From Crystallibacter degradans (lineage in GTDB: Bacteria > Actinomycetota > Actinomycetes > Actinomycetales > Micrococcaceae): a DNA stretch of 64,000 bases. The stretch's first letter is position 1; each line of letters begins with the position of its first letter. Shown in pieces: positions 10,447 through 20,539 of the stretch. The DNA lies in contig NZ_JABBCH010000005.1 in assembly GCF_012952295.1 (NCBI RefSeq), forward strand, positions 186,001 to 250,000, in the 5' to 3' direction. Under the pieces are notes generated by a model. The model did no database searches, was not told where the DNA came from, and saw only the letters and a list, made by a program, of their open reading frames with translations. A program made the translations under genes and the position numbers.

Positions 10447-10454
<8 letters not shown>

Positions 10455-11913
10455 TCCACGCGGATTCATGAAGGTACGTGAACGTCAGACCCAGCCGAGG
10501 CGTCCGGTCCCGGTCCGCATCATGGACTGGAAGGAAGTGTACGAGGCACAGGAAAAGGGCGTTCTGAAGGCCCAGGCCGGACGCTGCATGGACTGCGGCA
10601 TCCCGTTCTGCCATCAGGGCTGCCCGCTGGGGAACCTGATTCCGGAATGGAATGACCTCACCTGGCGCGGCAAAGGACAGGAAGCGATTGAGCGCCTGCA
10701 CGCCACCAACAACTTCCCGGAATTCACGGGACGGCTGTGCCCGGCACCGTGCGAGTCGTCCTGCGTGCTGGGGATCAACCAGCCAGCCGTGACCATCAAG
10801 CAGGTGGAGGTTTCCATCATCGACGAGGCCTTCGACAATGGGTGGGTCACGCCGCTGGCGCCGGAGCGCCTGACCGGACAGACCATCGCTGTCGTCGGTT
10901 CCGGCCCCGCCGGCCTCGCCACCGCCCAGCAGCTGACGCGGGCGGGACACACCGTCGCAGTGTACGAGCGTGACGACAAGGTCGGCGGCCTGCTGCGCTA
11001 CGGTATTCCGGACTTCAAGATGGAGAAAGACCATCTGGAGCTGCGTCTGGAGCAGATGCGTGCCGAGGGCACCCGGTTCCGCACCGGCATCGAGATCGGC
11101 AAGGATGTCAGTTGGGAGCAGCTGCGCCGCCGGTACGACGCCGTAGTGATCGCTACCGGCGCCACCGTGCCGCGCGACCTGGCCATACCTGGCCGCGAGC
11201 TGGACGGCGTCCACTTCGCCATGGAGTACCTGGTCCAGGCCAACCGTGTTGTGGCGGGGGAGAAGGTGGAGAACCAGATCGATGCCCGTGGCAAGCACGT
11301 AGTGATCCTCGGCGGCGGCGACACCGGAGCTGACTGCCTCGGCACGGCGCACCGCCAGCAGGCGGCGTCGGTCACCACGCTGGCCATTGGAAAGCAGCCG
11401 CCTGCGGAGCGTGCCGCGCACCAGCCCTGGCCGACGTTCCCCACACTGTTCGAAGTGGCCAGTGCTCACGAGGAAGGCGGCGAGCGAACCTACCTTGCCT
11501 CCACCGTTGAATACCTGGGCGACGGCGAAGGCAAGCTGCGCGCGCTGAAGGTCGCGGAGACCGAATTCGTGGACGGCAAACGTGTGCCCAAGGCGGGCAC
11601 CGAACACGAAATCCCGGCGGATCTGGTCTTGCTCTCCCTCGGCTTCACCGGTCCGGAACCTGCAGGTATCGCCGAACAGGTGAAGGCAGAGTTCGACAGC
11701 CGCGGCAACGTGGTCCGGGACGGTTATTACATGACCAACACGAACGGCATCTTCGTGGCCGGTGACGCGGGGCGTGGACAGTCGCTGATTGTCTGGGCCA
11801 TCGCCGAAGGCCGCGCCTGCGCTGCCGCCGTCGACAAGTGGCTGACCGGGCAGACGCGGCTGCCCGCGCCGGTGGCTCCGACCGACAGGCCGATAGCCGC
11901 CCTGCCGATGTAA
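10447..11913 (+). CDS. gltD: Glutamate synthase small chain
   Basis: GltD oxidises NADPH through FAD and passes electrons via 4Fe-4S centres to GltB. The 488-residue product starts with the cysteine cluster region ([17 protein letters not shown], then CPAPCESSC), followed by the FAD Rossmann motif [10 protein letters not shown] and the NADPH motif [11 protein letters not shown], and ends with the second FAD segment [16 protein letters not shown]. The GTG start lies inside the end of gltB, with GGAGG 5-9 bases upstream. Co-expression with gltB is therefore nearly certain. Confidence 0.96.
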
Positions 11914-13520: not shown

Positions 13521-14114
13521 CTAGTTGACCTGGTTGATGATGGTTTCGGCAACTTCGCGCATGCTCAGGCGACGGTCCATGGAGGTCTTCTGGATCCAGC
13601 GGAAGGCTTCGGGCTCGGTCAGGCCCATCTTGGTGATGAGGAGGCTCTTTGCCCGTTCCACCAGCTTGCGCGTGGCGAATTGCTCCTGCAGGTCGGAGAC
13701 CTCGGACTCCAGTGCCTTGATCTCCTGGTGGCGGGAGAGCGCAATCTCGATGGCAGGCACCAGATCGGCGGGCGTAAACGGCTTGACCACATAGGCCATC
13801 GCGCCCGCGTCGCGTGCCCGCTCGACCAGTTCCTTCTGGCTGAAGGCGGTCAGCAGCACCACGGGGGCGATGCGCGCCTTCACAATCTGTTCGGCCGCGG
13901 TAATCCCGTCCATGACCGGCATCTTGACGTCCATCAGCACGAGGTCCGGCTTGAGTTCGGTGGCCAGCTCGACGGCCTTTTCCCCGTTGTCGGCTTCGGC
14001 AACGACGTCGAATCCTTCGCCGCGGAGGATCTCAACGATGTCCAAGCGGATCAGAGTTTCGTCTTCGGCAACGACAACGCGGCGTGTGGGGGTGGACTCG
14101 GTTTGCTCAGACAC
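13521..14114 (-). CDS. pdtaR: ANTAR-domain response regulator (PdtaR type)
   Basis: Two-component response regulator whose output domain binds RNA and prevents transcription termination. The 197-residue product has a receiver domain (acidic pair E17-D18, phospho-acceptor Asp62 in VLMDVKMP, Thr in LLTAF, Lys in VVKPF), a coiled segment around residues 125-145, and a C-terminal ANTAR domain (RAKSLLITKMGLTEPEAFRWIQK). Starts at GTG after GAGGAG. A TAGGCT -10 reads on the minus strand at 14170-14165. Its sensor kinase is not in the window. The gene name rests on similarity to the mycobacterial protein. Confidence 0.92.
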   Translation of the reverse strand: MSEQTESTPTRRVVVAEDETLIRLDIVEILRGEGFDVVAEADNGEKAVELATELKPDLVLMDVKMPVMDGITAAEQIVKARIAPVVLLTAFSQKELVERARDAGAMAYVVKPFTPADLVPAIEIALSRHQEIKALESEVSDLQEQFATRKLVERAKSLLITKMGLTEPEAFRWIQKTSMDRRLSMREVAETIINQVN

Positions 14115-14264
14115 TGGTACTCCTCGATGAGTTTTGTAACCCTATTGCTGCGGTTCTCGGAAATAGCCTATCGGCATGTAGAGTAGATTCGCGCACTCAA
14201 GGAGCATGACAGTCTTCACAAAGGACTGTTGATCGTCATTGAATTTACGGTGAATGTGTTCCTG

Positions 14265-14345
14265 GCCCGAGTGGCGGAATGGCAGACGCGCTGCACTCAA
14301 AATGCAGTATCGAAAGGTGTGTGGGTTCGAGTCCCACCTCGGGCA
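14265..14345 (+). tRNA. tRNA-Leu, anticodon CAA
   Basis: The acceptor arms GCCCGAG (14265-14271) and CTCGGGC (14338-14344) pair fully, and the discriminator is A14345. The anticodon stem CTGCA/TGCAG encloses CTCAAAA, giving anticodon CAA, which reads UUG. A long variable arm (TATCGAAAGGTGT region) marks a class II tRNA, and the T arm carries GTGGG-TTCGAGT-CCCAC. The 3' CCA is not encoded. Confidence 0.96.
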
Positions 14346-14352
14346 CAAATAG

Positions 14353-14375
14353 GCTCCTGGTCCAGGAGCTTTTTG
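14353..14375 (+). terminator. Intrinsic terminator of tRNA-Leu
   Basis: GCTCCT-GGTCC-AGGAGC followed by TTTTTG, starting 8 bases after the tRNA end. It is a canonical stem plus U-run. Confidence 0.8.
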
Positions 14376-14415
14376 TGTTTAAGGGTGGACAACGCTCGCT
14401 CCGATTTCTCTGCGC

Positions 14416-15117
14416 TTACACGAGCGGCCACGGGTAACGCATGCCGGTGTCGTCGACCGGAAGCACCCGCTCATGCAGCAGGCGCTTCACCCGGAGCCGC
14501 AGGGCGGCAACCTCCATGTCGTCGAGGAGTTCGGCTACGTCGGGAGGCACCGCTTGTGCGAGTGGGGCGATGTCATCCAGCAGAGCGCCCGGGATAGGTT
14601 CACCGGCGAAATCCCAAATCACGGTGCGCAGTTTGAAGTGTGCCGCGAAGCACAGCCCGTGGTCGATGCCCCATACCCGTCCGTCGTAGCCGCGCAGCAC
14701 GTGCCCACTTTTGCGATCAGTGTTGTTGGCGATGCAATCGAACAGGGCGATCTGCGCCAAGCAGTCACGAGTTTCGGCTGATTCTGCAAAGAGCGTGAAG
14801 TAATGCTCACGCTGGTCGTTCTCGACGAACCACTGTAGCGACCCGATGCCCAAGGGAGAGTCCTCGCGAATCACTGTCGGCGGAACTAGGCCCCACCCCA
14901 GATACTCGCTCAGCAGATAAGCCGCACGTTCCCGCCGGTAGAGCCCAGGCTCAAAGTCGGACAGCGGCCGTTCCCCGGCCTCCGGCTTGTAAATTGCCCA
15001 CGCTGACTCCTCCCGGCAGGAGACTTGGACGAGGAACGTCGCGTTGCTGCTGCGCAGGATACGTCCGAGGATCTCGATGCGGCCCTCGGCGAGCAGTGTC
15101 AGCTGCCGTTCGGACAC
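14416..15117 (-). CDS. SCO1664 family protein, PI-kinase-like fold
   Basis: 233-residue member of an actinobacterial family (TIGR03843, SCO1664) described as distantly related to phosphatidylinositol 3/4-kinases and HipA-like kinases. Visible kinase-like elements are the lysine strand AIYKPEAGERPL (about residues 41-52), the catalytic-loop-like DCIANNTDRKSGHVL (about 127-141) and the metal-site-like WGIDHGLCF (about 149-157). The substrate is unknown. It begins with GTG, 13 bases after the stop of a histidine phosphatase on the same strand, so the two form an operon. In many actinobacteria a third gene (DUF3090) accompanies them; it is absent here. Confidence 0.88.
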   Translation of the reverse strand: MSERQLTLLAEGRIEILGRILRSSNATFLVQVSCREESAWAIYKPEAGERPLSDFEPGLYRRERAAYLLSEYLGWGLVPPTVIREDSPLGIGSLQWFVENDQREHYFTLFAESAETRDCLAQIALFDCIANNTDRKSGHVLRGYDGRVWGIDHGLCFAAHFKLRTVIWDFAGEPIPGALLDDIAPLAQAVPPDVAELLDDMEVAALRLRVKRLLHERVLPVDDTGMRYPWPLV

Positions 15118-15130
15118 AGTTTGACCCGTT

Positions 15131-15790
15131 TCACGACGCCCTCAACCCACTCAAGGATTCAAGGGTCGAGTTCACCATGAGCACGGCGGGCGCCTGACCC
15201 TCCACATAGGAGATGACCGAGACCGAGCACGGGCTGATAACGACCCTCTGGAAGAGGTCCAGATGCGTGCCCAGGGCATGGGCAACGGCGGCCTTGATCG
15301 GGTCGGCGTGGGAGAAGCAAACGACGACGCCGTCAGCGTGCGAGGCGCACAGCGCCTCGAGGGTGCCGACCATCCGCGCTTGCATCTGTGCGAAGCTTTC
15401 CCCCTCCGGGAAGCGGAAGGCGGACGGAGTGTGCTGTACGGTCTGCCACTGCGGCAAAACCGCCAGTTCGGCGAGCGCGGCACCGGTCCACGCGCCGAAG
15501 TCGCACTCGATCAGTCCGGCGTGCTCGTTCACCTCGAGCCCTGTCCTGGCTGCCGTCGGCTCGGCAGTTTCGCAAGCGCGTTCCAGTGGCGAGGAGTAGA
15601 TGCCGTCAATCGGAAGCGCTGCGAGCCGCTCCGCGACCCGTTGGGCCTGGACCCGGCCACCGTCGGAGAGGTGTAGTCCGGGGGCAAGCCCGGGCAGCAC
15701 CTTGCCCGTCGTGGGCGTCTGCCCATGGCGCACCAGAAGGAGCAGGGTACTCGGCGGTTTTGCTGGCGCCGACGGTGTTGTTGCAGTCAT
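15131..15790 (-). CDS. Histidine phosphatase family protein, MSMEG_4193 type
   Basis: 219-residue member of the phosphoglycerate-mutase/histidine phosphatase superfamily. It has the catalytic LVRHGQTP with the phospho-histidine, the SSPLERACETAEP arginine motif and the late SHADPIKA histidine. The mix matches the MSMEG_4193 subgroup (TIGR03848), which accompanies SCO1664 kinases and has been called a probable phosphomutase. ATG at 15790 is preferred to an adjacent TTG; TACGCT lies 8 bases before it and no ribosome site is visible. It heads a two-gene operon. Whether it is a phosphatase or a mutase cannot be told from sequence. Confidence 0.88.
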   Translation of the reverse strand: MTATTPSAPAKPPSTLLLLVRHGQTPTTGKVLPGLAPGLHLSDGGRVQAQRVAERLAALPIDGIYSSPLERACETAEPTAARTGLEVNEHAGLIECDFGAWTGAALAELAVLPQWQTVQHTPSAFRFPEGESFAQMQARMVGTLEALCASHADGVVVCFSHADPIKAAVAHALGTHLDLFQRVVISPCSVSVISYVEGQAPAVLMVNSTLESLSGLRAS

Positions 15791-15886
15791 CAAAATCCAG
15801 CGTATGCGGTCCCAGGTGCTGACGCGATGGAATCATGAGAAAGTCGGATGCTCGATTCACAGCAGTTCGAGGACTACCTTTGAGGT

Positions 15887-17275
15887 GTGAGTGATCGTCC
15901 CGAAATCTTCACCGTCGGTGAACTACGTGCAGCCGGCCATGTCCACAAGGACCTGCGCCGCGAGATCCGCGACAACCTGCTCGCCGCGCTTGCCGCAGAC
16001 CGCGATCCGTGGCCCGGCATGTTTGGTTTCAGCCGCACGGTGCTTCCCCAGCTCGAGCGTGCCTTGATCGCCGGCCACGACGTTGTCCTGCTCGGCGAGC
16101 GGGGACAAGGCAAGACGCGGCTCTTGCGCTCCCTGGTCGGGCTCCTCGACGAGTGGTCTCCGGTAATCGAGGGATCGGAACTGAACGAACACCCGTACGA
16201 ACCGATCACCGAGCTGTCCGGCGCCCGTGCCCTCACCGAAGGGGACCGGCTGCGTGTGGCCTGGCGGCACCGCTCGGAACGCTACGTCGAGAAGCTCGCC
16301 ACCCCTGACACCTCTGTCGCCGACCTTATCGGCGACGTCGATCCCATGCGGGTAGCGGAGGGCCGTCGGCTCGGGGACCCGGAAACCATCCACTACGGTC
16401 TCGTCCCCCGCTCCAACCGCGGCATCATCGGCATCAATGAACTGCCCGACCTTGCCGAGCGTATCCAGGTCGCGATGCTCAACGTGATGGAGGAGCGCGA
16501 CATCCAGATCCGCGGCTACGTCCTTCGGCTGCCCCTCGATGTGCTTGTCGTCGCCTCGGCGAACCCGGAGGACTACACCAACCGCGGCCGGATCATCACT
16601 CCACTGAAGGACCGCTTCGGCGCTGAGATCCGCACCCATTACCCGATCGAGCTGGAAGACGAAGTTGCAGTGATTGCGCAGGAGGGTCGGCTGGTCGCCG
16701 ACGTTTCGCCCATCATCCTCGAGATCCTGGCCCGCTACACCCGTGCGCTCCGTCAATCCCCGGCAGTCAACCAAAGTTCCGGAGTGTCGGCGCGGTTCGG
16801 CATCGCGGGCGCTGAGACGGTCGCCGCGGCAGCGCTGCGCCGGGCTGCCGTGCGCGGGGAAGATGAGGCAGTCGCCAGGATTGTCGATCTGGAGAGTGCT
16901 GTCGATGTCCTCTCCGGCAAGATTGAGTTCGAATCGGGTGAAGAGGGGCGGGAGCGCGCCGTCCTCGACCACCTCGTGCGCACGGCCACTGCCGAGGCCG
17001 TGCGGATGCACTACCGCGGCATCGATTTCGGGCCGCTCGTTGCTGCGCTCGACGGCCACACGACCGTAACCACCGGGGAAGAAGTCACCGCGCGGGAGTT
17101 CCTTGCGAACCTCCCGGCTCTTGACGGACCCGACCTGTACGACCAGATCGGCGCGCGCCTGGGGGCGAAAAACGAGGGGCAGCGCGCTGCCGCAATCGAA
17201 CTGGCACTGGAGGGCCTTTTCCTCGCCCGGCGGATTTCCAAGGAGTCCGACGACGGGGAAACGATCTACGGCTAG
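15887..17275 (+). CDS. AAA+ ATPase of the MoxR / magnesium-chelatase class
   Basis: 462-residue AAA+ protein. Walker A is GERGQGKT at residues 70-77; the Walker B region is IIGINEL near 180-186, with Asn-Glu in place of the usual Asp-Glu; sensor 1 is VVASANPEDYTNRG, and an arginine-rich DRFGAEIRTHYP follows. Length and motifs resemble Mycobacterium Rv0958, annotated as a possible magnesium chelatase, but no chlorophyll or cobalamin genes are near. It probably remodels a target together with the VWA protein encoded next. TACCTT 6 bases before the GTG fits a leaderless start. It is divergent from the phosphatase gene, 96 bases away. Confidence 0.88.
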   Translation: MSDRPEIFTVGELRAAGHVHKDLRREIRDNLLAALAADRDPWPGMFGFSRTVLPQLERALIAGHDVVLLGERGQGKTRLLRSLVGLLDEWSPVIEGSELNEHPYEPITELSGARALTEGDRLRVAWRHRSERYVEKLATPDTSVADLIGDVDPMRVAEGRRLGDPETIHYGLVPRSNRGIIGINELPDLAERIQVAMLNVMEERDIQIRGYVLRLPLDVLVVASANPEDYTNRGRIITPLKDRFGAEIRTHYPIELEDEVAVIAQEGRLVADVSPIILEILARYTRALRQSPAVNQSSGVSARFGIAGAETVAAAALRRAAVRGEDEAVARIVDLESAVDVLSGKIEFESGEEGRERAVLDHLVRTATAEAVRMHYRGIDFGPLVAALDGHTTVTTGEEVTAREFLANLPALDGPDLYDQIGARLGAKNEGQRAAAIELALEGLFLARRISKESDDGETIYG

Positions 17276-17302
17276 GAATCAGGACTACGGATAGGCAGCA
17301 TC

Positions 17303-19306
17303 ATGAGCGCTCACCATCGGTCCTCCCGGTACGGCCGGTACACGGGCGGACCCGATCCGCTCGCCCCGCCGGTTGATCTAGCCGAGGCGCTTGACGCGAT
17401 CGCCGAAGACGTCATGGCAGGCTACTCGCCCCGGCACGCCCTGCAGGAGTTCCTGCGCCGCGGCGGCCGGGACCGTGAAGGGCTGGACGACCTCGCCGGC
17501 CGTGTTCAGCAACGCCGACGGGACCTGCTGAGCCGTCACCGGCTGGACGGCACCCTCAGTGAAGTCCGGAAGCTGCTCGACACCGCCGTGCTGGAGGAAC
17601 GCAAGCAGTTGGCCCGCGACGCCATGATGGACAACACCGACCGTGCATTCCGGGAGATGCAGCTGCAGAACTTGCCCTCGTCCACCGCCGCAGCGGTCAA
17701 TGAGCTCGCCTCCTATGACTGGCAGTCGAGCACGGCCCGGGAGGCCTACGAACGGATCAAGGACCTGCTGGGCCGAGAGGTTCTTGATCAGCGGTTCGCC
17801 GGCATGAAACAGGCGCTCGAGAATGCCACCGACGAAGACCGCGAAGCCGTGCGCGGCATGCTGCGCGATCTGAACGAGCTGCTCGACAAACACCGGCGTG
17901 GCGAGGACACCGACGAAGACTTTCAGAAGTTCATGTCTCAGCACGGCAGCGTTTTTCCGGAGAACCCGGAATCGGTCGAGGAGCTGATCGATGCCCTTGC
18001 CCAGCGGGCTGCCGCCGCCCAGCGGTTTCTGCAATCCATGTCCCAGGAGCAGCGAGATGAGCTGATGCGTCTGTCGGCCCAAGCGTTCGGCTCGCCCGAA
18101 CTCATGGCGCAGCTCGATCAGCTCGACTCGAGCCTGCGTGCCCTGCGGCCCGGCGAGGACTGGACCGGCTCCGAGCGCTTCGAGGGACAGGAAGGACTCG
18201 GGCTGGGCGACGGCACGGGAGTGCTCCAGGACGTCGCCGAACTCGACGAGCTCGCCGAGCAGCTCTCCCAGTCCGCCAACGGATCACGCCTCGATGATCT
18301 GGATCTGGACGCCCTCGCACGCCAACTCGGTCAAAATGCCGTTGTGTCGGCCCGCGCCCTCGCGGACATCGAACGGTCGATGCAGGACAGCGGTTATCTG
18401 CGGCGCGGTGCCGACGGCGACCTCCGATTGTCGCCCCAGGCCATGCGGCGGCTGGGGAAGTCGCTGTTGCGGGACACTGCCAAGCAGCTGTCCGGCCGAC
18501 AGGGACGCCGGGATACGCGTGTCGCCGGGGCAGCGGGCGATCAGACCGGCTCCAGCCGTGAGTGGCAGTTCGGGGACGCCGAGCCGTGGGACGTCACACG
18601 CACCCTGACAAACGCGATCCGCCGGACAATGGCCGACGGCGGCGATCCGAGCCGCGGTCTGCGCCTCGGACCGGGCGACATCGAGGTGGCGGAAACGGAG
18701 GCCCGCACCCAGGCCGCCGTCGCCCTGCTGGTCGATGTGTCGTTCTCGATGGCCGCCGAGGGACGGTGGGTCCCGATGAAACGTACCGCGCTCGCCTTGC
18801 ACCAACTGGTCTCAACCCGTTTTCGTGGGGACCGGCTGCAGCTGATCACTTTCGGCCGCTACGCGCAGTCCATGGACATCGGCGACCTCACGGCCCTGCC
18901 GGCGCTGCGGGAGCAGGGAACAAACCTGCATCATGGCCTGCTGCTGGCCAATCGCTTCTTCCGGCGGCACCCTTCAATGCAGCACGTCCTCCTTGTGGTC
19001 ACCGACGGCGAACCTACCGCGCATCTGTTGTCCGACGGCGAGTCGCTGTTCTCCTGGCCACCCGATCCGGAGACAATCCGCGTAACAGTCGCCGAACTCG
19101 ACCGGCTTGGACGTGCCGGCACGCAAGCCACGTTTTTCCGGCTCGGCGACGACCCAGGACTAGCACGTTTCGTCCAAAAAATGGTCCGCCGAATCGACGG
19201 CCGGATCGTCGCTCCAGAGCCCGGGGATCTCGGCGCAGCCGTTGTGGGGGAGTACCTCCGCGCCCACTTCCACGGCACCTACGACGACATCGATTGGGGT
19301 TCATAG
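17303..19306 (+). CDS. VWA-domain protein, partner of the AAA+ ATPase
   Basis: 667-residue soluble protein with a long helical, charged N-terminal region (residues 1-400) and a C-terminal von Willebrand A domain. The MIDAS site starts with Asp478-x-Ser480-x-Ser482 (DVSFS); REQGTNLHHG and VVTDGEPT supply the remaining metal ligands. It follows the ATPase by 27 bases. MoxR-type ATPases and VWA proteins commonly act as chaperone pairs for metal insertion or complex assembly; the client is unknown. Similar in size to Mycobacterium Rv0959. The last six bases overlap the convergent LigD-type gene. Confidence 0.88.
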   Translation: MSAHHRSSRYGRYTGGPDPLAPPVDLAEALDAIAEDVMAGYSPRHALQEFLRRGGRDREGLDDLAGRVQQRRRDLLSRHRLDGTLSEVRKLLDTAVLEERKQLARDAMMDNTDRAFREMQLQNLPSSTAAAVNELASYDWQSSTAREAYERIKDLLGREVLDQRFAGMKQALENATDEDREAVRGMLRDLNELLDKHRRGEDTDEDFQKFMSQHGSVFPENPESVEELIDALAQRAAAAQRFLQSMSQEQRDELMRLSAQAFGSPELMAQLDQLDSSLRALRPGEDWTGSERFEGQEGLGLGDGTGVLQDVAELDELAEQLSQSANGSRLDDLDLDALARQLGQNAVVSARALADIERSMQDSGYLRRGADGDLRLSPQAMRRLGKSLLRDTAKQLSGRQGRRDTRVAGAAGDQTGSSREWQFGDAEPWDVTRTLTNAIRRTMADGGDPSRGLRLGPGDIEVAETEARTQAAVALLVDVSFSMAAEGRWVPMKRTALALHQLVSTRFRGDRLQLITFGRYAQSMDIGDLTALPALREQGTNLHHGLLLANRFFRRHPSMQHVLLVVTDGEPTAHLLSDGESLFSWPPDPETIRVTVAELDRLGRAGTQATFFRLGDDPGLARFVQKMVRRIDGRIVAPEPGDLGAAVVGEYLRAHFHGTYDDIDWGS

Positions 19307-20539
19307 ACGCCCCGGCCACTCCTTGCCTGCCCATGGGTCGTAATCAGCGATGAGCTCCTCCTGCGGCGTACGCTCCGCTTCGGGAACGTGCTGCAGGTTC
19401 ACCCGCACCCGGTACCAGAGCGAGCTCGATCCGCGCATTCCATCGACGAGCACATCGGCTGGGTGCAAGGCCGGGACGAGGTCCGCATGCCGAGTCTTCC
19501 ACTCTTCCAGCGCCGCTAATGCCTCGGACTTGGTCTTGGTGCGTGCCACCTCGATGAGCGGCATCATCGACTGCCGGCGGCCGGAGCCGTCGCCGCCGCG
19601 TGGCGGCTTCTCGGCGGGGCCAAGCTCGGCTGCCAAGGCGAGGAGCCCGTCAAGTGTGCCGACCGCGTCGTCGATACCGGCATGAGGATCTCCCAGCTCG
19701 GCGAACCGCTCGGGCACCGTGCGCACGGTGAATTGTTCGGGCAGGGCGGAGCGGACCTCGTCCCATGCGAGCGGCGTCGAGACGCGGGCATCGGGCAGGG
19801 GCCGGACCGAGTATGCCGACGCCACGGTGCGGTCCTTGGCGTTCTGGTTGAAGTCGACGAACACGCTCTCGCCGCGCTCCTCCTTCCACCACCGCGCGGT
19901 GGCGAGGCCGGGAGCGCGGTTCTCGACCTCACGGGCGAGGGTCTCGGCGGCGAGCCGCACGTCGCGGTACGTCCATTTCGGCGCAATGCGCACCAGAATG
20001 TGGAGTCCGCGTGACCCGCTCGTCTTCGGCCAGCCCGTAAGTCCCACGTCGTCGAGCACCTCACGCGCTACATACGCGACGTCGACGATCTGTGACCAGT
20101 CGACCCCCGGCATCGGATCGAGGTCGACCCGGAGCTCGTCGGGGTGCTCGAGGTCCTCCGCGCGCACAGGATGCGGGTTGAGGTCCAGGCATCCAAGATT
20201 CACCACCCATGCCAGGCCGGCGGCATCCCGGATCACCGTCTCCTCGGCTGATGTCCCCGATGCGTAATGCAGCGTTGCCGTGTCGATGAACTCGGGGTGG
20301 TTCTCGGGCACGCGCTTCTGAAAGAACGGCTCAGCGTCGATGCCCTTCGGGAAGCGCTTGAGTACCATTGGCCGGCCACCGGCGCCACGCAACGCACCGT
20401 CCGCGACGGCGAGGTAGTAGCGAACCAGGTCGAGTTTCGTCAGCCCGGGCTCGGGGAACACCATCTTGTCCGGACTCGAAATGCGGACCTCGGAACCGGC
20501 GATGTTGAGGATCTCGGCCGGGGTCTTCGACGGCGTCAT
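19301..20539 (-). CDS. Stand-alone LigD-type polymerase domain protein (longer, PolD2-like)
   Basis: 412-residue archaeo-eukaryotic-primase-like polymerase domain of the kind that forms the polymerase part of LigD. RVDLDPMPGVDW carries the catalytic Asp-x-Asp; KTSGSRGLHILV is the conserved nucleotide-binding stretch; WWKEERGESVFVDFNQN holds the third acidic residue. Residues from about 300 on are a C-terminal extension absent from the second copy at 31473. No ligase or nuclease domain and no Ku gene are nearby. Mycobacterial homologues (PolD1, PolD2) add ribo- or deoxynucleotides at gaps and ends. TAGCGT 6 bases before the ATG suggests a leaderless start. Confidence 0.9.
   Translation of the reverse strand: MTPSKTPAEILNIAGSEVRISSPDKMVFPEPGLTKLDLVRYYLAVADGALRGAGGRPMVLKRFPKGIDAEPFFQKRVPENHPEFIDTATLHYASGTSAEETVIRDAAGLAWVVNLGCLDLNPHPVRAEDLEHPDELRVDLDPMPGVDWSQIVDVAYVAREVLDDVGLTGWPKTSGSRGLHILVRIAPKWTYRDVRLAAETLAREVENRAPGLATARWWKEERGESVFVDFNQNAKDRTVASAYSVRPLPDARVSTPLAWDEVRSALPEQFTVRTVPERFAELGDPHAGIDDAVGTLDGLLALAAELGPAEKPPRGGDGSGRRQSMMPLIEVARTKTKSEALAALEEWKTRHADLVPALHPADVLVDGMRGSSSLWYRVRVNLQHVPEAERTPQEELIADYDPWAGKEWPGRL

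Follow-up and report, generated by a model that had tools for sequence, protein, structure and literature searches.

In the window, by which we mean the whole stretch of 64,000 nucleotides of Crystallibacter degradans DNA analyzed here, a kinase gene of the SCO1664 type (K) and a histidine phosphatase gene of the MSMEG_4193 type (P) lie side by side without DUF3090, the third member of the actinobacterial cassette to which both families belong. The locus raises the question of whether these two genes are a minimal form of a reversible phosphorylation system, as the original prediction proposed, or belong to something larger. Our analysis suggests that a known, uncharacterized phosphorylation cassette gains two partners not connected with it before: the pair is probably one half of a divergent four-gene module, a variant of the P–DUF3090–K system that lacks DUF3090 and in which an AAA+ ATPase and a VWA-domain protein act in the same system.

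Gene content of the locus

A short intergenic region separates the VWA and AAA+ genes from P and K (Table 1), and the two arms would be transcribed divergently from this shared region. P may start with the ATG at 15790 or with a TTG one codon further up, at 15793. An alignment of 35 Arthrobacter-type loci revealed conserved blocks beside both start codons of the intergenic region, which, judged by eye, may be putative promoters; no match to the sigma-70 consensus was detected within positions 14000–17400 of the window.

Table 1. Features of the four-gene locus (positions in the window)
Feature	Position	Strand	Basis or remark
K: SCO1664-family (TIGR03843) kinase, 233 aa, PI4KII-like fold	14416–15117	−	ORF and profile matches
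Gap between P and K, 13 bases	15118–15130	none	Too small for DUF3090
P: MSMEG_4193-family (TIGR03848) histidine phosphatase	15131–15790	−	ORF and profile matches
Short region separating the divergent P and AAA+ genes	15791–15886	none	Alignment
A: AAA+ ATPase, ChlI/MoxR-like, 462 aa	15887–17275	+	Pfam AAA_5, Mg_chelatase, Sigma54_activat
V: VWA-domain protein, 667 aa	17303–19306	+	Pfam VWA_2, residues 473–570

The coordinates and family names given in the original prediction for the closely spaced pair proved right. K scored 247–252.9 bits against TIGR03843 (curated cut-off, 172.4) and 31.1 bits against Pfam PI3_PI4_kinase (cut-off, 27.1), and P scored 216.8 bits against TIGR03848 (curated cut-off, 203.85) and 167.7 bits against Pfam His_Phos_1 (cut-off, 21.7). 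Loss of kinase-fold residues in relatives, which had been named as an argument against catalysis, was not seen: Lys-44, Glu-63, Asp-134, Arg-135, Lys-136, His-139, and Asp-152 of K were conserved in all 173 kinase rows tabulated (57 pair rows together with 25 and 91 trio rows, some genes having been fetched twice). In P, Arg-22, His-23, Arg-72, Glu-96, and His-162 were conserved in the pair loci, and Arg-72 and His-162 in 172/172 rows, again with some genes fetched twice; the RHG glycine was replaced by alanine in 14 trio rows and Glu-96 by aspartate in 20, substitutions that occurred in none of the pair loci. We take Rv2135c to be the phosphatase of the SCO1664/DUF3090/MSMEG_4193 cassette. 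The Mycobacterium tuberculosis phosphatase is described as an acid phosphatase with no known substrate (PMC3866925).

The AAA+ gene, which encodes a Walker A motif (GERGQGKT), adjoins a gene whose product carries a C-terminal VWA domain with MIDAS residues (Asp-478, Ser-480, Ser-482, Thr-540, and Asp-568), as in MoxR/VWA pairs. The Walker A lysine was retained in 111/115 rows (the other four being gaps) and the MIDAS residues in 117/120 (three gaps), with genes fetched twice included in both sets. Thus, the catalytic residues are intact in all four genes. Asn-Glu replaces Asp-Glu in the AAA+ Walker B motif in 114 of the 115 rows, which is unusual for a family of ATPases.

Around the four genes, a tRNA-Leu (CAA) gene (14265–14346) and then a terminator-like hairpin (14351–14371) lie directly past the 3′ end of K. 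Because tRNA-Leu was found in the fetched stretches of only two of 53 pair loci (L036 and L043), a tRNA-borne island fails to explain the origin of the module. The 3′ end of the VWA gene shares a few bases with a stand-alone LigD primase-polymerase gene (19301–20539), and an ARAGORN tRNA-Ala call (10824–10920) inside a gltD-like ORF (10447–11913) is probably a false positive. ORF clustering of the pair neighborhoods, a weak approach that picked many antisense frames, revealed no further trustworthy conserved partner and gave no hint of a proteasome link.

DUF3090 and the second copy in the genome

As the original prediction stated, no DUF3090 gene lies between or beside the two genes, so that the locus does not have the trio order, with DUF3090 between P and K. 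A search of the whole genome (4.96 Mb in 124 contigs) with TIGR03847 and TIGR03843 revealed that DUF3090 is nevertheless not missing from it: there was one DUF3090 match, on contig C92 (239.9 bits; TIGR03847 cut-off, 117.25), and two TIGR03843 kinases, the window copy and one on C92 (344.6 bits). The C92 locus is a complete P–DUF3090–K trio that is not next to AAA–VWA genes, and the window genes are only distantly similar to it (35% identity for K and 43% for P). A DUF3090 gene elsewhere with conserved linkage had been expected to turn the pair into a relocated trio. Since the C92 DUF3090 is flanked by its own P and K, this reading is ruled out; the genome has two copies, of which the window pair is the divergent one.

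We sorted the kinases of a family sample of 120 genomes into two classes by score, a split that agrees with the kinase tree for the fetched loci. Trio-type kinases (at least 337 bits) were present in 57/120 genomes, all with DUF3090, and window-type kinases (216–265 bits, one of them in two pieces) in 31/120, of which 14 had no DUF3090 match at all. The Corynebacterium glutamicum control genome also had the kinase and no DUF3090 match. In a phylum sample of 246 genomes, K was found in 105 and DUF3090 in 107, including every genome with K; the two that carry a window-type kinase (G000 and G009) also have a trio. Since TIGR03847 finds DUF3090 in all of these K genomes and detects divergent copies in the phylum at scores of about 90 bits and lower, it is unlikely that a divergent DUF3090 was missed in the genomes that appear to lack it. 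The original reading is thus borne out in part: the pair can do without DUF3090 (14/31 pair genomes), but to call it a minimal form is misleading, since it is tied to the AAA+ and VWA genes, as described below.

Seven genomes in the family sample had DUF3090 without an intact trio kinase, and all seven carried a window-type kinase, compared with 10/57 genomes with a trio kinase (Fisher 3e-5, calculated with shared ancestry ignored, the seven genomes representing four genera). In six of the seven, the lone DUF3090 was an open frame beside a kinase stub (L136–L141). Pairwise dN/dS values for DUF3090 were 0.04–0.12 among three of these loci from one genus (L137, L139, and L141), 0.04–0.26 among all lone copies, and 0.11–0.27 among trio copies. 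The survival of lone DUF3090 genes together with the window-type pair indicates that the pair can take the place of the trio kinase and that DUF3090 can outlast its partners. DUF3090 may have a role in trans for the pair. The 7/7 contrast, the open frames beside kinase stubs, and the low dN/dS values are what would be expected if the window pair still used DUF3090 supplied by the C92 trio, only the linkage having been lost; however, the complete lack of a DUF3090 match in 14/31 pair genomes and in C. glutamicum, the internal stop in the DUF3090 gene beside the broken kinase of G038 (L134), and the non-independence of seven genomes from four genera make this reading rather doubtful.

Two further irregularities of the trios were observed. 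One family genome (G098), which is 4% contaminated, has a second, broken trio in addition to an intact one, and four genomes of one genus (G014, G044, G068, and G090) have a partial second trio-type kinase, mostly its C-terminal half, 4–12 kb from the trio. In two family genomes, a gene for a TerC-family membrane protein lies beside the P–DUF3090–K trio (L150:9067–10149 and L151:4268–5365; Pfam E 8e-49 and 3e-48).

The model structure of DUF3090 (from L038; pLDDT 87.2) had PURA repeat I–II as its best solved match (Z 8.8, rmsd 3.4, 110 residues aligned), followed by Whirly proteins (Z about 6). Since these matches are near the level of common arrangements, we draw no function from them. Rv2134c is presumably the DUF3090 gene of M. 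tuberculosis. According to PMC11329110, Rv2134c was among the BCG mutants that were more sensitive to rifampicin (−1.42).

Linkage of the pair to the AAA+ and VWA genes

Among the best 80 of 300 related loci, 53 were without DUF3090 and 27 with it (L079 by a weak match), and the closest named record for K was from Arthrobacter sp. VKM Ac-2550 (94%). The comparison of gene order that the original prediction had called for thus revealed that the pair without DUF3090 is a recurrent arrangement rather than a chance one. In 53/53 of these loci, P had an AAA+ gene and then a VWA gene upstream of it, both on the opposite strand; the AAA+ match was less than 400 bases from the P match in 50 of them and 1.4–1.9 kb from it in L030, L048, and L057. 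The hosts were Arthrobacter, Pseudarthrobacter, Citricoccus, Propionibacteriaceae, Micropruina, Brachybacterium, Gulosibacter, and Corynebacterium, and the arrangement was kept across Micrococcaceae, Propionibacteriaceae, Corynebacterium, Brachybacterium, and Gulosibacter, while the flanking genes varied. Of the 27 loci with DUF3090, only L075 had AAA–VWA in the fetched stretch. The 53 loci share an ancestor and represent few independent events; the linkage of AAA–VWA to P–K is well supported. In the literature searched, in which subscription journals were thinly covered, no published link between the P–DUF3090–K cassette and AAA–VWA was found.

The association of the VWA gene with K extends to genomes in which the two are unlinked. 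The Fisher values below were calculated with shared ancestry ignored and without an unrelated gene as a control. In the family sample, VWA was present in 33/120 genomes, including all 31 with a window-type kinase, where it was always within about 6 kb of that kinase on the same contig. The remaining two (G052 and G086) have a trio kinase, and in G086 AAA–VWA is still accompanied by P and by a window-type kinase that is broken. All 33 VWA genomes thus have an intact K, and VWA was absent from all 42 genomes without K (Fisher 5e-8, ancestry ignored). In the phylum sample, K was present in 73/76 genomes with VWA (71/74 when the two linked genomes were left out) versus 32/170 without it, the three VWA genomes that lack K being G170, G323, and G338. 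Here AAA+ adjoined VWA in 29 of the 30 VWA loci returned, and P, DUF3090, and K were absent from all 19 longer regions surrounding unlinked AAA–VWA genes (L115–L133). In addition, 25 of the 27 genomes with P–DUF3090–K loci of the wider clade of this kinase (among the best 80 of 300) had a VWA gene. In a class sample of 197 genomes, VWA was found in 119 and K in 185 (Fisher 0.002, ancestry ignored), with VWA but not K in G386 and G442 (60% complete); K is present nearly everywhere in this sample, so the test is weak there. Conversely, 32/105 K genomes in the phylum sample and 68/185 in the class sample, Streptomyces-like and other genomes among them, retain K without VWA, indicating that AAA–VWA is not required for K retention. 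The dependence is one-way: VWA depends on K, not K on VWA.

Adjacency of all the components was also found outside Actinomycetota. K was present in 44/95 genomes of the phylum Rokubacteria, and we fetched 37 of the 45 full-length K matches there, two others being L056 and L075. In L075, from a Rokubacteria MAG, VWA–AAA was divergent from P–DUF3090–K. In L220, L241, and L245, the AAA+, VWA, P, DUF3090, and K genes were contiguous on one strand; the VWA stop almost touches the first bases of P in L220 and L241, the AAA+ gene of L245 is truncated by the contig end, and the gene between P and K in L220 was identified as DUF3090 by Pfam (E 3.3e-47). Identity to the window proteins was 46–48% for AAA+ and 32–33% for VWA in L220, L241, and L075, and 35% for the part of AAA+ present in L245. 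Eight further loci had AAA+ on the strand opposite to P, 4–7 kb upstream of it, and 26 of the 37 fetched K regions, some of them cut by contig ends, had no AAA+.

The history of the module was examined using kinase and AAA+ trees, both built by a quick method. In the kinase tree, the pairs without DUF3090 formed a group (60 rows, SH-aLRT 93) with three DUF3090-bearing loci from Propionibacteriales MAGs inside it (L038–L040), and this group was nested among DUF3090-bearing kinases of the Acidimicrobiia type and was separate from the Actinomycetes trio kinases. The pair-linked AAA+ genes formed one clade together with L251 and L147 (58 rows plus these two, SH-aLRT 99), which lay inside Actinomycetes and not beside Acidimicrobiia. 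The module is therefore chimeric, P–K of one stock having joined a resident AAA–VWA of another. Since L038–L040 lie inside the group, either DUF3090 was lost repeatedly, or it was regained, or these loci are misplaced. In the genome of L040, a VWA–AAA locus (L251) is followed 3.4 kb on, at the contig end, by the start of P, which suggests that the linkage of AAA–VWA to P–K came before the loss of DUF3090.

Possible functions and related systems

In the four-gene module that we favor, K, a compact PI4KII-like kinase, would phosphorylate and P would dephosphorylate one common target, and the AAA+/VWA proteins, by analogy with RavA–ViaA or CbbQ–CbbO, could be an ATP-driven remodeler with K, P, or their common target as its client and the VWA protein as its adaptor. 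RavA–ViaA is a MoxR AAA+/VWA pair that remodels clients with the VWA protein serving as the adaptor (PMC10585395), and MIDAS mutants of CbbQ–CbbO retain ATPase activity and lose activase function (PMC5437159). The one-way dependence of VWA on K fits an AAA–VWA arm acting on the kinase/phosphatase cycle. DUF3090 would be an accessory component that is dispensable in this lineage; in the genome studied here, the C92 trio can still provide one in trans. More tentatively, and with somewhat less than even confidence, AAA+, VWA, histidine phosphatase, DUF3090, and PI4KII-like kinase may form a five-component phosphorylation machine across Actinomycetota and Rokubacteria, in which the joining of AAA–VWA to P–K in the window lineage makes DUF3090 unnecessary, both serving overlapping control steps of one cycle; in most actinobacteria such a machine would be split over two loci and hence unrecognized.

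The neighborhood might also have been inherited without any functional tie, P–K having landed once beside a resident AAA–VWA operon. The few joining events implied by the trees, the chimeric descent of the module, and the position of the C92 trio away from AAA–VWA are all compatible with such hitchhiking, which we nonetheless consider improbable given the independent adjacency in Rokubacteria, the co-occurrence of VWA and K where the genes are unlinked, and the survival of the arrangement across the five host groups despite differing flanks. That K and P form an autonomous kinase/phosphatase pair to which AAA–VWA is irrelevant would accord with their intact enzyme residues and with the 14 pair genomes without DUF3090, but the unbroken linkage to AAA–VWA in the 53 loci and the co-occurrence results leave this reading little chance. 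Even less credence is due to a defense or conflict system of the vWA–MoxR kind (VMAP ternary or TerY-type kinase/phosphatase/vWA sets). Although vWA–MoxR pairs and vWA/kinase/phosphatase sets do occur in such systems (PMC7159879), PADLOC matched none of K, P, and VWA and gave for AAA+ a single meaningless match to a P-loop (19 bits), the module occupies a single steady chromosomal locus, and P is a histidine phosphatase rather than a PP2C; we therefore rejected this candidate.

Regarding the substrate, the predicted structure of K (mean pLDDT 90.5) was closest to PI4KIIβ among solved structures (Z 19.0, rmsd 3.1, 218/233 residues aligned), and the nine best solved entries were all type II PI 4-kinases (Z 19.0 to 17.4; Foldseek E 2.3e-08), in line with a sequence profile match to PI4K2B (E 8e-05). 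A review reports SCO1664 as always closely linked to mshC (PMC4255298), and this linkage and the PI4KII-like fold together make an inositol compound a candidate substrate. A role of K as a lipid or inositol kinase, in a system that phosphorylates phosphatidylinositol or one of the inositol sugars of mycothiol synthesis, is nevertheless unlikely: a common fold says nothing on the substrate, the same fold family also holds kinases that act on proteins and sugars (FAM20, Z 15.6; CtkA, Z 13.6; HipA-type kinases, Z about 12), and neither K copy was noticed beside mshC in this genome.

The SCO1664/DUF3090/MSMEG_4193 cassette is present in most of the Actinomycetes sampled (K in 185/197) and has no known function. 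Once it is tied to AAA–VWA, two lines of inquiry that had led nowhere become a single system open to testing: the AAA–VWA pair gains a candidate client in the K/P system, and Arthrobacter and Corynebacterium are organisms in which DUF3090 can be omitted.

Several known systems resemble parts of this module. The fold predicted for K is that of the type II PI 4-kinases (PI4KIIα/β), although K is much smaller and only about 21% identical. The AAA+ protein matched the magnesium/cobalt chelatase families BchI-ChlI (37.7 bits) and Cob-chelat-sub (35.2 bits), with ChlI as its closest PDB sequence (E 2.6e-08), and the VWA protein matched Cob-chelat-sub (36.0 bits) and no PDB sequence at E 0.01. These likenesses to magnesium chelatase I/D are weak, however, since scores of 35–38 bits are far below the NCBIfam cut-offs of 467–779 bits for magnesium/cobalt chelatases, and no AAA domain was reported in the VWA protein. 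We take MSMEG_5512/Rv0958 to belong to the same family as the actinobacterial AAA–VWA operons described here. In PMC7092591, MSMEG_5512/Rv0958 is annotated only as “magnesium chelatase.”

RavA–ViaA, CbbQ–CbbO, and NirQ–NorD likewise consist of an AAA+ gene followed by one encoding a protein that ends in a VWA domain with an intact MIDAS; the window pair differs from them in that the best family and PDB matches of its AAA+ protein are to ChlI and not to RavA, and in being tied to a kinase and a phosphatase. With the three-gene cassette TIGR03848–DUF3090/TIGR03847–TIGR03843, the window locus shares both enzyme families and the position of P upstream of K on one strand, and differs in lacking DUF3090, in being joined to AAA–VWA, and in the divergence of its enzymes from the trio of its own genome. 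The five-gene loci of Rokubacteria (L220, L241, L245, and L075) retain the DUF3090 that is absent here, and contain all four genes of the window module, in L075 with the same divergent layout.
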